Assembly: GCF_004402785.1 (NCBI RefSeq) | Contig: NZ_SOFP01000046.1 | Coordinates: 186,001 to 250,000, forward strand | Length of the DNA stretch: 64,000 nt | Reading direction: 5' to 3' | Origin: Cryobacterium algoritolerans | GTDB lineage: Bacteria > Actinomycetota > Actinomycetes > Actinomycetales > Microbacteriaceae | In this document: piece by piece, positions 18,829 to 51,011 of the stretch | How positions within the stretch are numbered: position 1 is the stretch's first letter | Layout of the letters: each line of letters starts with the position of its first letter | Program-made: the position numbers and the translations under genes | Notes under the pieces: generated by a model | Databases searched by the model: none | What the model saw: the letters and a program-made list of their open reading frames with translations, nothing else | Told to the model about the DNA's origin: nothing

Positions 18829-19257
<429 letters not shown>

Positions 19258-47524: not shown

Positions 47525-47560
47525 CATCGGCATCGGCATCGGCATCGGCATCGGCATCGG
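47525..47560. repeat. Six CATCGG hexamers ahead of the DUF2071 gene
   Basis: Six exact tandem CATCGG units ending 24 bp before the ATG at 47584. The tract sits where the -10 or the 5' leader would be, so copy number could alter promoter spacing or the leader. Confidence 0.9.
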
Positions 47561-47583
47561 CAATACAGACAGGAAGGTCCACT

Positions 47584-48315
47584 ATGACGGGTGCAGGGAC
47601 GCAACCGATTTCGTCCATTGCGCCGCTGCTGGCAGGTCGTGCATCGGCCAGCCAGCGGTGGTCGCACCTGGTCTTCCTGCACTGGCGGGTGGAGGCGGCG
47701 CAGGTGGCCCCTCTCCTGCCTGCCGGGCTCGTTCCGGATGAGTTCGACGGCAGCAGCTGGGTGGGTCTGATTCCGTTCGTGCTCGACCGGGCGACGGTCT
47801 GGGGAAGCCCGCCGGTGCCATACTTCGGCAGTTTCGTCGAAGTCAACGTCCGCCTGTACGCCGTCGATGCCGCCGGCCATCGAGGAGTGGTCTTCGTGTC
47901 GCTGGAGGCCTCGAGGCTCGCCGCGGTGATTGCCGCCCGGACCCTTTTCCGGATTCCGTACCGCTGGTCCCGCACCAGGCTCGCCAGGTCGGCGGGGGAG
48001 TTCAGCTACACCTCCCGCAGGCACCTGGCTGTTTCCGCCCGGACTGACATCGTGGCGCGCCGCACGGACCAGCCTGTCGTCGACGATGCCCTGGCCGACT
48101 TCCTCACCGCGCGATGGGCACTTTTCACCACGGTGCGCGGTCGAACGGTGCACCTGCGCAACCACCATGAGCCGTGGCCATTGTTCCGCGCAGAGCTGGT
48201 GCGGCTCGACGACACTCTCCTGGCCGCGGCCGGGTTCCCCGATGTCGCCGACCGGCAGCCCGATTCCGTGCTCTACTCGCCGGGGGTGACCACTCGGTTC
48301 GGACGAGCCGGTTGA
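47584..48315 (+). CDS. DUF2071 (YqjF family) protein
   Basis: 243 residues. Family blocks: RWSHLVFLHWRVEAAQVAPL near 25-44, LPAGLVPDEFDGSSWVGLIP near 45-64, FGSFVEVNVRLYAVDAAGHR near 80-99 and GVVFVSLEASRLAAVIAART near 100-119. It is a soluble acetoacetate-decarboxylase-like beta fold of unknown function, common in actinobacteria and Bacillus. ATG 47584 has AGGAAGG upstream. It starts after a CATCGG repeat and ends next to the heliorhodopsin remnant. Confidence 0.85.
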   Translation: MTGAGTQPISSIAPLLAGRASASQRWSHLVFLHWRVEAAQVAPLLPAGLVPDEFDGSSWVGLIPFVLDRATVWGSPPVPYFGSFVEVNVRLYAVDAAGHRGVVFVSLEASRLAAVIAARTLFRIPYRWSRTRLARSAGEFSYTSRRHLAVSARTDIVARRTDQPVVDDALADFLTARWALFTTVRGRTVHLRNHHEPWPLFRAELVRLDDTLLAAAGFPDVADRQPDSVLYSPGVTTRFGRAG

Positions 48316-48689
48316 GGCGTTGGGCACCCGCAATACCTGCCGGAGCCGAGACGCTGACGGGTACCGTCGGGGCGAGGACCCCGTGATCAAGGCGGCGACC
48401 CCGATCGGCGTTTTCTCGGTGCTCCGGTCCGTGATCGGATTCCCGCGCTGCGTGTTCGTGCTGCCGGCACTGGCGAACAGCCTTGTTGCCGGGGACGCCT
48501 CCACCCGAGCGCCCCGGCCTGGTGGGTGGGCGCTCTCAGAAACATTCTGTCTGGTGTGCTGGGACAAGCGTCCGTGAGGCTGCGAGCTCAGCAGGCGCTG
48601 ATCGGCCTTGTATCTCAGATCCGGGTGAGCTACGCCGAGAAGGTGGCGCCCCTGCTGGTGCATCCGGCCCTGGATGACCGGTCAGGTTT

Positions 48690-49116
48690 ATCAGCATGTA
48701 CTGGGGCATCGTCACGATCAACGCGCTCATCGCCATCGCCGGTGCCAACATCGCGATGATTCTGTTCGGCTGGCTGCAGGAAAAGATGAACCTCCTGCAC
48801 GAACCTCCACCACCCCGTGGGTTGCAATGGTCATCAATGTTTCGCTGCTCAGAGACGAAAACCTACCCGCAGCGCTGTATGTGATCCTGATCGTTCAGGG
48901 AGTCTTCTTCTTCTTCTTCTTCTTTTCTTCTTCTTCTTCTTCTTCTTCTTCTTCTTCTTCTTGTGCTGCTGCTTCGCCCTCAACCAGTGGCTTCAGTATC
49001 GGCAGGTTGGCCCGTGGCGCAACTACGCATTCGGTGAAAAGACGTATCTGGTGCTCAGCCTCGCGGCAAAGTCACTCTTGGCGTGGCAGATCTTCGCGGC
49101 GTCGCTCGTTGCGTGA
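48690..49116 (+). pseudogene. Heliorhodopsin gene remnant, N-truncated and frameshifted
   Basis: Three blocks in three frames match consecutive parts of one heliorhodopsin. First: MYWGIVTINALIAIAG and ANIAMILFGWLQEKMN (helices 3-4). Second: PWVAMVINVSLL and LPAALYVILIVQGVFFF (end of helix 5 into helix 6). Third: CFALNQWLQYRQVGPWRNYA and LSLAAKSLLAWQIFAASL (helices 6-7), ending at TGA 49114. The Lys of LSLAAKSLLAWQ is the retinal Schiff-base position. Helices 1-2 are missing, about 20-25 residues are lost between blocks one and two, and a TTC microsatellite carries the second frameshift. Upstream 48316-48690 holds no other gene I can support. Heliorhodopsins are retinal proteins with reversed topology, common in actinobacteria. 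Confidence 0.82.
48904..48962. repeat. TTC trinucleotide microsatellite within the heliorhodopsin remnant
   Basis: About nineteen TTC units with one interruption (TTCTTTTCTTC near 48920-48930). It sits where helix 6 should read continuously into CFALNQWLQY. The interruption, not the triplets, changes the frame. Confidence 0.92.
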
Positions 49117-49324
49117 CCAGAACGTTCTCCTGCGAAACGTGGGTCACGTAGCGGCGCGAGAGGGACATCAGATCGCCGAGCACTCGCCATGGCCCTGCAG
49201 TTCGAGTGTTGGCAAACTTCCTGCACTTCTCTCGGCCAGCACCGGAGCAGTTCGATCGAATGACCGTGATGGTGTCGCTCGACTCGTCTGGGACCAAGTG
49301 CAGAGGGGCCGGGACGAACTCCGG

Positions 49325-50035
49325 TCAGGCGGAGATCTGGAGAACGCTCGCCGCAAGTCCGACGCACAGCACCGCGACCAGGATGAACAGCCCAGCCCAG
49401 ACGGTGCCCGGAACGTGGGTGAGCCGGGCGAGCTGGTCGGCATCGGAGGAGTGCCCGCCGCGGCGGGACCGGGACACCTGCAGTTCGAGCGCGGTGCGCA
49501 CGGCGCCCAGCAGCAGGAACGTCGTGATCAGCAGGGCCCCGATTCCCTGGACCAGGGCAGAGCCGAACCAGGTGACCGCGAGGATAAGTGTGCCGGTCAC
49601 CAGGACCGACCAGAGCCCGAACCAGTTGCGAATCTGAACGAGGATCAGCGTGAGCGCGGCGAGCATCAGCCAGAGCAATCCGGTGGCAAAACCGGCGCCC
49701 AGCATCGAGGCCGCGGCGAGGCCGAGCAGGGCCGGCGCGGTGTAACCGGCGAGCAGGGTGAGAATCATGCCGAATCCTCGCGGTCGTCCGCGGCTGACCG
49801 TGAGCCCCGACGTGTCGGAGTGCAGGCGGATGCCGCCCAGCCGGCGCCCGGTCAGTGTCGCCACCAGGGCGTGGCCGCCCTCGTGCGCGATGGTGACCAG
49901 ATGGCGTCCATGCCGCCATAACGCCGGAACCAGAACGAACACGGCGGCCGTGAGCACGGTGAGCAGGGCTGTCGTCGGGGGGAGCGCATCCTGATGGGCG
50001 CAGACGCGCCCCCAGAAGCCGAGAAGTACGTCCAC
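49325..50035 (-). CDS. M50 family membrane metalloprotease
   Basis: About 236 residues. The zinc motif HEGGH is in VTIAHEGGHALVATLTGRR near residue 52 (in the second helix), and about six helices follow. The second site of S2P proteases (NxxPxxxLDG) is not obvious, as in the short M50B subgroup found in actinobacteria. It should cut membrane-bound substrates; the substrate is unknown. The start is unsure: GTG 50035 is chosen because it barely overlaps the upstream gene; TTG 50056 is also possible. Follows the ParA-like gene on the same strand, with stop and start overlapping or adjacent. Confidence 0.8.
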   Translation of the reverse strand: MDVLLGFWGRVCAHQDALPPTTALLTVLTAAVFVLVPALWRHGRHLVTIAHEGGHALVATLTGRRLGGIRLHSDTSGLTVSRGRPRGFGMILTLLAGYTAPALLGLAAASMLGAGFATGLLWLMLAALTLILVQIRNWFGLWSVLVTGTLILAVTWFGSALVQGIGALLITTFLLLGAVRTALELQVSRSRRGGHSSDADQLARLTHVPGTVWAGLFILVAVLCVGLAASVLQISA

Positions 50036-50039
50036 CGGC

Positions 50040-51011
50040 TCAGAGGCCTTCGGCAATCGTCGCCGTCGCGCGGAGCCAGGCCAGGCGAGTGTGCGGGGCC
50101 AGGGCGTGGATGTTCAGCGGTCCGCCGGCGACGATGGCCGGGTCGTATGGCACGTCGCAGACGGCCCGGGTGAGCTGGCCGAAGTGGTCGTGCAGCCGCC
50201 TGGAGAGCGCGGCGTCGACGGCCGTGGCCGGCATGGTCAGGATTGTGACGGCCTGGGCTACCTTGTCGGCGTGTCCCTTCTGGCGCAGTCCCTCCAGGAG
50301 CGCGGCCGCACCGTACCCGGTGTCCTCGCGAATCGTGGACACGACCACGAGCTGATCGGCCGTTTCGACCGCGGCCTCCCAGTTGGTGGCGCGCATGTTG
50401 TTGCCTGTGTCCACAATCAGCACCCGGTAAAAACGGCTGAGAATGCCGAAGAGCCTGCGGTATGCCGGTCCGTCGATGGTGGACACGCCCGCCGGGTCGA
50501 GATCGGACGCCAGGGCGTCGAACTGGGCATCCCCCTGTGAGTGGACATAGTTGTCCAGGTCACCGAGCCGAATCGAGTGTCCGTTGTCAAAACGGCCGAG
50601 GTCCCGCAAAAGATCCATGGCGGTATTCGTGTGCCCGCCGGCCATGATCCGTACCCCAAGGTTACCCATCGACTCGTTATTGTCCCAGGCAAGGGTGTAT
50701 CCGCCGCGGTACATTCCCATGGTCGCGGCTATCAGCAACGTCGCAGTCGTTTTGTTCGCTCCGCCCTTGGGATTGAGCACCACGATCGTCCGTGGGCCGT
50801 CGAAGGCGCGTTGGACTCTACCGATCGCCCGGCGTTGCCCGCGCTCGGCGCGACCGGGGCCGCAGGCGATGAGTCCGCGGGTCAGCCGCACCACCCTCCC
50901 CTGCCACCCGTGCTGGGCCGGCCCAGCTGTCGACGGGTTGGCCGGCGGATGAGGGCTGAGGAAACCGGCATGAGCGGCGGAACCATCGGTGCTGGGGGTA
51001 TTCAGCGTCAT
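50040..51011 (-). CDS. MinD/ParA-like ATPase
   Basis: 323 residues from ATG 51011 (a GTG at 51038 would add nine). After a Pro/Ser-rich N-terminal region (about 1-70) comes a deviant Walker A, VLNPKGGANKTTATLLIAAT near 78-97, then a P-loop ATPase core with LIVDTGNNMRATNW near 200-213 (Walker B-like, Asp) and QLVVVSTIREDTGYGAAALL near 223-242. The KGGxxKT form marks the SIMIBI MinD/ParA group. The partner ParB or a centromere is not nearby, and the Asn in place of Gly before KTT is unusual. Relatives are linked to type VII secretion or polar positioning. Function here is unknown. Confidence 0.78.
   Translation of the reverse strand: MTLNTPSTDGSAAHAGFLSPHPPANPSTAGPAQHGWQGRVVRLTRGLIACGPGRAERGQRRAIGRVQRAFDGPRTIVVLNPKGGANKTTATLLIAATMGMYRGGYTLAWDNNESMGNLGVRIMAGGHTNTAMDLLRDLGRFDNGHSIRLGDLDNYVHSQGDAQFDALASDLDPAGVSTIDGPAYRRLFGILSRFYRVLIVDTGNNMRATNWEAAVETADQLVVVSTIREDTGYGAAALLEGLRQKGHADKVAQAVTILTMPATAVDAALSRRLHDHFGQLTRAVCDVPYDPAIVAGGPLNIHALAPHTRLAWLRATATIAEGL

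Follow-up and report, generated by a model that had tools for sequence, protein, structure and literature searches.

What occupies the roughly 1,000 bases between two intact genes of Cryobacterium algoritolerans, and what part did a trinucleotide repeat play in their present state? The window, by which we mean the whole stretch of 64,000 nucleotides that was analysed (G000:C68:186001-250000), comes from a draft genome (3.7 Mb, 87 contigs) with a completeness of 100% and a contamination of 0.92%. An interval of about 1,000 bases without an assignable intact gene is bordered on the left by a DUF2071 gene, whose product is 87-93% identical at the amino acid level in the four nearest species (tblastn), and on the right by an M50B peptidase gene (Table 1). 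The original prediction placed a decayed heliorhodopsin gene at 48690-49116 and held a TTC microsatellite responsible for its loss. The extent is correct for the heliorhodopsin itself; however, homology to ancestral genes reaches further 5', to 48541 for an SDR gene and to 48368 for a DUF4386 gene, and bases 48792-48814 and 49117-49320 lie outside these assignments. We are confident in the following reading of these pieces: an SDR-heliorhodopsin pair once stood between the M50 gene and what remains of the DUF4386 gene, and it has decayed, probably through deletions and through slippage in the TTC tract.

Table 1. Features of the DUF2071-M50 interval and its flanks (window coordinates).
Feature	Position	Strand	Evidence
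DUF2071 gene, intact left flank	47584..48315	+	PF09844 E 2.5e-70 (Pfam)
DUF4386 membrane-protein gene, fragment	48368..48540	+	residues 94-153 of 264; alignment itself runs to 48547; tblastn 60% identity
SDR gene, C-terminal fragment	48541..48687	+	residues 212-260 of 297; 69% aa identity to SO3 SDR (L124:4982-5872)
Heliorhodopsin remnant, helix 4	48690..48791	+	PF18761 E 2.1e-8; 67% aa identity to SO3 over 48690-48818
Joint with a change of frame, 40 nt shorter than in intact orthologs	48792..48814	+	comparison to the five intact orthologs
Heliorhodopsin remnant, end of helix 5 to start of helix 6 (PWVAM ... VILIVQGV)	48815..48904	+	ortholog alignment
Expanded tract: TTC x6, TT, TTC x12, TTG, TGC x3	48905..48972	+	TRF and ortholog alignment
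Heliorhodopsin remnant, from the last part of helix 6 through helix 7 (SxxxK)	48973..49116	+	PF18761 E 1.1e-21; 89% aa identity to SO3 from 48976
M50B peptidase gene, intact right flank	49325..50056	-	PF13398 E 7.8e-60 (Pfam)

The family assignment made in the original prediction was borne out by a search against the heliorhodopsin profile PF18761. Two ORFs score above its curated cut-off of 26.7 bits, one at 48696-48884 (34.2 bits, profile positions 111-145) and one at 48817-49113 (77.7 bits, profile positions 183-242), and a search of the whole genome with this profile recovers the same two places in the window. A third piece, at 48782-48904, aligns to residues 160-211 of the heliorhodopsin of Arthrobacter sp. 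SO3 with 43% identity. Together with this middle piece, the blocks stand in order and each in a different frame, as had been proposed, and both signatures that had been pointed out, LSLAAKSLLAWQ and FALNQWLQYR, are present in the translation. The retinal-lysine motif of heliorhodopsins, SxxxK in TM7 (PMC9601134), is found as SLAAK in 48973-49116, and in the alignment with intact orthologs the stop codon of the remnant (49116) is at the ancestral place. The loss of N-terminal helices was also recognized correctly, but its extent was underestimated: not just helices 1 and 2 but helices 1-3 are gone, with homology to the five intact orthologs beginning at about the YW of helix 4, and helix 5 is 40 nt short compared to the same orthologs (helix borders follow from an alignment with solved heliorhodopsins and from motif positions). 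The TM3 glutamate, which sits in the ESL motif of heliorhodopsins (PMC9601134) and in RFRWAEYS in the intact orthologs, is absent from the remnant, as TM3 is missing. Because helices 1-3 are absent and the remainder is spread over three frames instead of one open frame, the locus cannot give rise to a seven-helix product; judged by its sequence, it is a pseudogene derived from the PF18761 family and not a working member.

That an ancestor carried a working gene, as had been postulated, is supported by open, full-length orthologs in two genomes of the same genus (G046 and G038; 79% identical to each other) and by the substitution pattern of the surviving blocks. In a tree of 104 rows the remnant belongs to a clade of six (support 100/98), together with Arthrobacter sp. 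SO3, Arthrobacter sp. AL12, a MAG, G046, and G038. The remnant, which fills only 36% of the tree columns, is not separated from SO3 within this clade, and the group typified by a second heliorhodopsin of the same genome (C59) joins the large group that holds the remnant by long branches. The closest DNA within the genus belongs to G046 and G038, with 78-80% identity in the longer segments of the alignment and 73% in the tail of G038. A scan of named genomes with the G046 protein finds 76-77% identity in Arthrobacter sp. SO3, the MAG, which is labelled as Herpetosiphonaceae, and Arthrobacter sp. AL12, and at most 65% in all other loci among the 80 retained (out of 107 that encode a relative). 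Among 398 genomes of the family, a sample that lacks G046 and G038, the same protein has no listed match above 43% except for this genome's own pieces; this heliorhodopsin clade is rare in that sample. The contigs labelled as Herpetosiphonaceae and Bifidobacterium breve (L125 and L145) carry heliorhodopsins of the actinobacterial type and are likely mislabelled or misbinned MAGs.

Over 96 aligned codons, dN/dS between the remnant and the five intact orthologs is 0.13-0.18 (mean 0.157), and for the ten pairs of intact orthologs it is 0.08-0.18 (mean 0.128); these values come from the alignable blocks, a choice that biases them downwards, and dS approaches saturation. Since the surviving blocks are close to the intact genes in this measure, the decay looks recent. 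The blocks appear to carry no sign of long neutral drift, and a slight relaxation of the remnant is possible.

The SDR fragment lies directly 5' of the heliorhodopsin remnant, with order and strand matching those in Arthrobacter sp. SO3. By itself the fragment matches no Pfam family, and the SDR of SO3, at 22 bits, stays under the Pfam cut-off of 26.6; the putative family name rests on the homolog from G038, which matches adh_short with 29.8 bits against this cut-off. Compared with the 57 genomes of the genus, the SO3 SDR has a full close copy in G038 only (70%), the window fragment reaches 67%, and the remaining matches are at most 38% identical (44 genomes have any match). On SO3 coordinates the joint between the SDR and heliorhodopsin pieces skips about 620 bp. 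SO3 has GCCATG on both sides, and GCATG is found at the joint in the window, a microhomology that is suggestive only. Because SDRs are reported as one of ten frequent classes of heliorhodopsin neighbours (PMC11109279), we read the remnant as a fossil SDR-heliorhodopsin pair, apparently fused by a deletion of about 0.6 kb. The likeness to the PF18761 heliorhodopsins of the SDR-neighbour group, as far as that group is characterized in PMC11109279, consists of the profile match, the TM7 SxxxK motif, and the same-strand SDR upstream as in SO3, and it is drawn at the level of the SDR class. The remnant differs from this group in having lost its 5' half, part of helix 5, and its frame, and its SDR is a fragment of 49 residues.

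The gene neighbourhoods of the intact relatives are similar to one another without being the same. In SO3, a TetR gene on the opposite strand is followed by MFS, SDR, and heliorhodopsin genes (L124:2755-6789); in G038 the set consists of TetR, MFS, heliorhodopsin, and a convergent SDR gene (L071:1690-5626), so that position and strand of the SDR gene differ between the two clusters. In AL12 a TetR gene adjoins the heliorhodopsin gene, and within the flanks examined this SDR gene is found beside two of the five intact clade members. Possibly, the TetR/MFS/SDR/heliorhodopsin cluster represents a mobile light-responsive cassette. Searches of the window for MFS and TetR remnants with the SO3 proteins as queries listed no match exceeding 35% identity (threshold E 1e-3).

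The gene content of the DUF2071-M50 interval was inspected in the four nearest species. In two of them (G012 and G048) it comprises a TetR gene and a full-length DUF4386 gene, the latter matching PF14329 in G012 (Pfam); DUF4386 is shortened in G020 and absent from G040, where 78 bp separate the two aligned flanking genes. The intact heliorhodopsin gene that had been expected at this locus in close relatives did not come to light: in at least 33 other genomes of the genus, according to a hand count of the matches listed, DUF2071 and M50 matches are located at most 5 kb apart on one contig, and none of the heliorhodopsin matches listed in the genus search falls inside these intervals. This distribution points to an insertion of the heliorhodopsin and SDR pieces that is private to this lineage, or to a loss elsewhere. 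Given that a DUF4386 fragment persists at the site and the full gene is found in relatives, the SDR and heliorhodopsin pieces appear to have been added in this lineage and to have since eroded along with the older DUF4386 gene. A search for plasmids with 48500-49200 in distant mode gave no match. As in the usual bacterial pseudogenes that arise by deletion and frameshift, gene fragments lie between intact neighbours, and the same interval is shortened in two relatives (G020 and G040); what sets the locus apart is that one of its lesions is a triplet-repeat expansion, at a site with three units in intact genes.

The count of about nineteen TTC triplets in helix 6 agrees with TRF, which reports a period of 3, 20.3 copies, and a 96% match at 48903-48962. 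Exact TTC units are found at 48905-48922 (six) and 48925-48960 (twelve), and these are followed by TTG and by three TGC at 48964-48972. The TTTTC interruption to which a frame change had been ascribed corresponds to an incomplete unit, TT, between the two runs, and this is the point at which the frame changes; both the exact count and the incomplete unit are read from one draft assembly (87 contigs) of one isolate. Compared to the form in G046, the tract has a net gain of 56 nt together with the change in frame. The suggestion that a Phe-coding stretch had grown fits the intact genes well: four of the five intact clade members (G046, G038, SO3, and the MAG) read TTC TTC TTC TGC/TGT TTC at this site, AL12 being the exception with CTC TTT TTC TGC TTC. 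In 80 fetched loci, 56 motif matches were obtained, of which 37 have three TTC, 15 have two, 4 have one, and none has more; the remaining loci escaped the pattern, and the matches were not each confirmed as heliorhodopsin. Folding of the tract DNA revealed no structure beyond that of shuffled sequences (z -0.52).

A long TTC run had been called unusual, and with respect to this unit it is: (TTC)7 has no second occurrence in the genome and, among the other 56 genomes of the genus, is present in G039 only. The same does not apply to triplet runs as such. In this genus, which is of the NucS type, triplet microsatellites are fairly frequent, with (GTC)7 present in 7 of the 57 genomes and (CTG)7, its reversed control, in 16 of the 57, neither of them in the genome studied here. 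Going by these counts, triplet arrays arise readily in the genus, and it is the TTC unit and its location that surprise, not that an array exists at all. The run in G039, located at about 1500-1545 of L085 (G039:C69), is the only (TTC/GAA)7 besides that in the window across all 57 genomes; read in one frame, it looks like an E2 acyltransferase linker.

Replication slippage is a plausible origin for the tract, because the genome encodes a NucS protein (NucS_C, E 3e-43 in a profile search), gave no match to MutS_V in a search that was positive in 11 of 14 control genomes, and NucS repair is reported not to correct short indels (PMC8228993). The argument is limited by the suggestion, made in the same paper, that polymerase proofreading suppresses most short indels. 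In our preferred reading, decay of the pair by deletions and slippage, one deletion would have joined the C-terminus of the SDR straight to helix 4, and another would account for the 40 nt missing from helix 5. Growth of the TTC tract would reflect replication slippage, with unequal recombination as an alternative route, and the products of slippage would have been left standing by a NucS-type mismatch repair that does not correct indels. The loss of this heliorhodopsin may have been tolerated since the genome keeps two further heliorhodopsin genes open.

What the analysis leaves unsupported in the original prediction is a causal or initial role of the microsatellite in the loss of the gene. 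The first half of the gene and 40 nt of helix 5 were also lost, and the large deletions did as much damage as the TTC expansion, or more; moreover, a single genome cannot order the lesions, which leaves the claim that the expansion came first unsupported. We rank a late expansion as more likely. That the tract grew only after the death of the gene, by neutral slippage in released sequence, has in our estimate a somewhat better than even chance of being correct: intact orthologs have at most three TTC units in the motif matches, and the tract is almost without point changes and thus probably young. However, the order of the lesions is unproven, and blocks with little or no relaxation suggest that the time spent as a dead gene was probably short.

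The opposite order, in which a working gene was first destroyed by poly-Phe in helix 6 and then suffered the deletions, strikes us as unlikely, even though intact genes contain the seed of three TTC, the tract has hardly an imperfection, and a unit of three nucleotides would initially add Phe codons in frame. Two larger lesions are present, none of the 56 motif matches exceeds three TTC, and a nearly perfect tract beside blocks that have diverged by about 20% in DNA from the nearest ortholog fits a late expansion equally well or better. We are just as doubtful of the wider proposal that, in a NucS genome, the three-TTC Phe stretch of a working photoreceptor grew to about 19 units as the first inactivating event, which would make it a bacterial counterpart of trinucleotide-repeat disease. 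The likeness to the GAA-TTC expansion of human FXN in Friedreich ataxia is that the same repeat unit expands; however, the FXN repeat is intronic, whereas the tract in the window comprises about 19 units in bacterial coding sequence.

We consider it very improbable that the locus still yields a product, be it a two-helix protein of 99 aa from ORF 48817-49116 or that of a phase-variable gene switched by the repeat. This ORF does run without interruption to the ancestral stop codon and retains the retinal lysine, but the original start region has disappeared, the part of the ORF that precedes the TT is read in a frame other than the ancestral one, and such a form is seen in none of the full-length heliorhodopsin matches from the genus; as for phase variation, triplet repeats do not shift the frame. 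A phase-variable contingency locus was rejected as a candidate, the repeat unit being 3 and the gene otherwise broken. Finally, we give almost no credence to an assembly or sequencing error in an intact gene: the genome is a draft and the repeat is located at the frame change, but an error in a repeat would not explain the absence of helices 1-3, the junction with the SDR, or the 40 nt lacking in helix 5, and the tract of about 60 nt, which is shorter than common sequencing reads, has unique flanks.

Heliorhodopsins are found in at least one locus of 33 of the 57 genomes of the genus. Including the window, the genome studied here has four such loci, the most among the 57, and G046 has three. 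Its paralogs on contigs C49 and C59 are open over the whole PF18761 profile. The C59 gene is located beside genes for lycopene cyclase (PF05834) and beta-carotene 15,15'-dioxygenase (PF15461), and on account of these two genes the strain can probably make retinal. At this locus (L073:945-4198) the heliorhodopsin gene is divergent in type and convergent with its two carotenoid neighbours. In the fourth locus, on C75 (L072:4041-4871), the frame is broken by one base, and an ORF with a transposase domain is found about 0.4 kb 5' of it. By our own count (48 rows, with three loci split), 4 of the 45 loci in the genus are broken or split, namely the window, C75, G007, and G031; the heliorhodopsin of G031 (L029) has an in-frame TAA, and that of G007 (L080) is split in two frames. 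Assembly error is a possible cause of the breaks in C75, G007, and G031.

The locus can be regarded as a readable fossil of a light-receptor/SDR gene pair, in a lineage that appears to have discarded one of its four heliorhodopsin genes and keeps two open. Our literature searches, conducted at the level of titles, found none on a decayed heliorhodopsin, and such a report may exist in print. As it stands, the locus is one well-documented pseudogene, with the repeat as its point of interest. If repeat expansion turned out to be one way in which genes are lost in NucS-type genomes, then short triplet seeds would be predictable weak points in actinobacterial genes. Repeats with a longer unit are also present in the window: a perfect hexamer array, CATCGG x6.3, is found at 47525-47562, just 5' of the DUF2071 start codon, and a second hexamer array, CCGGCA x21 with a 90% match, at 18863-18988.
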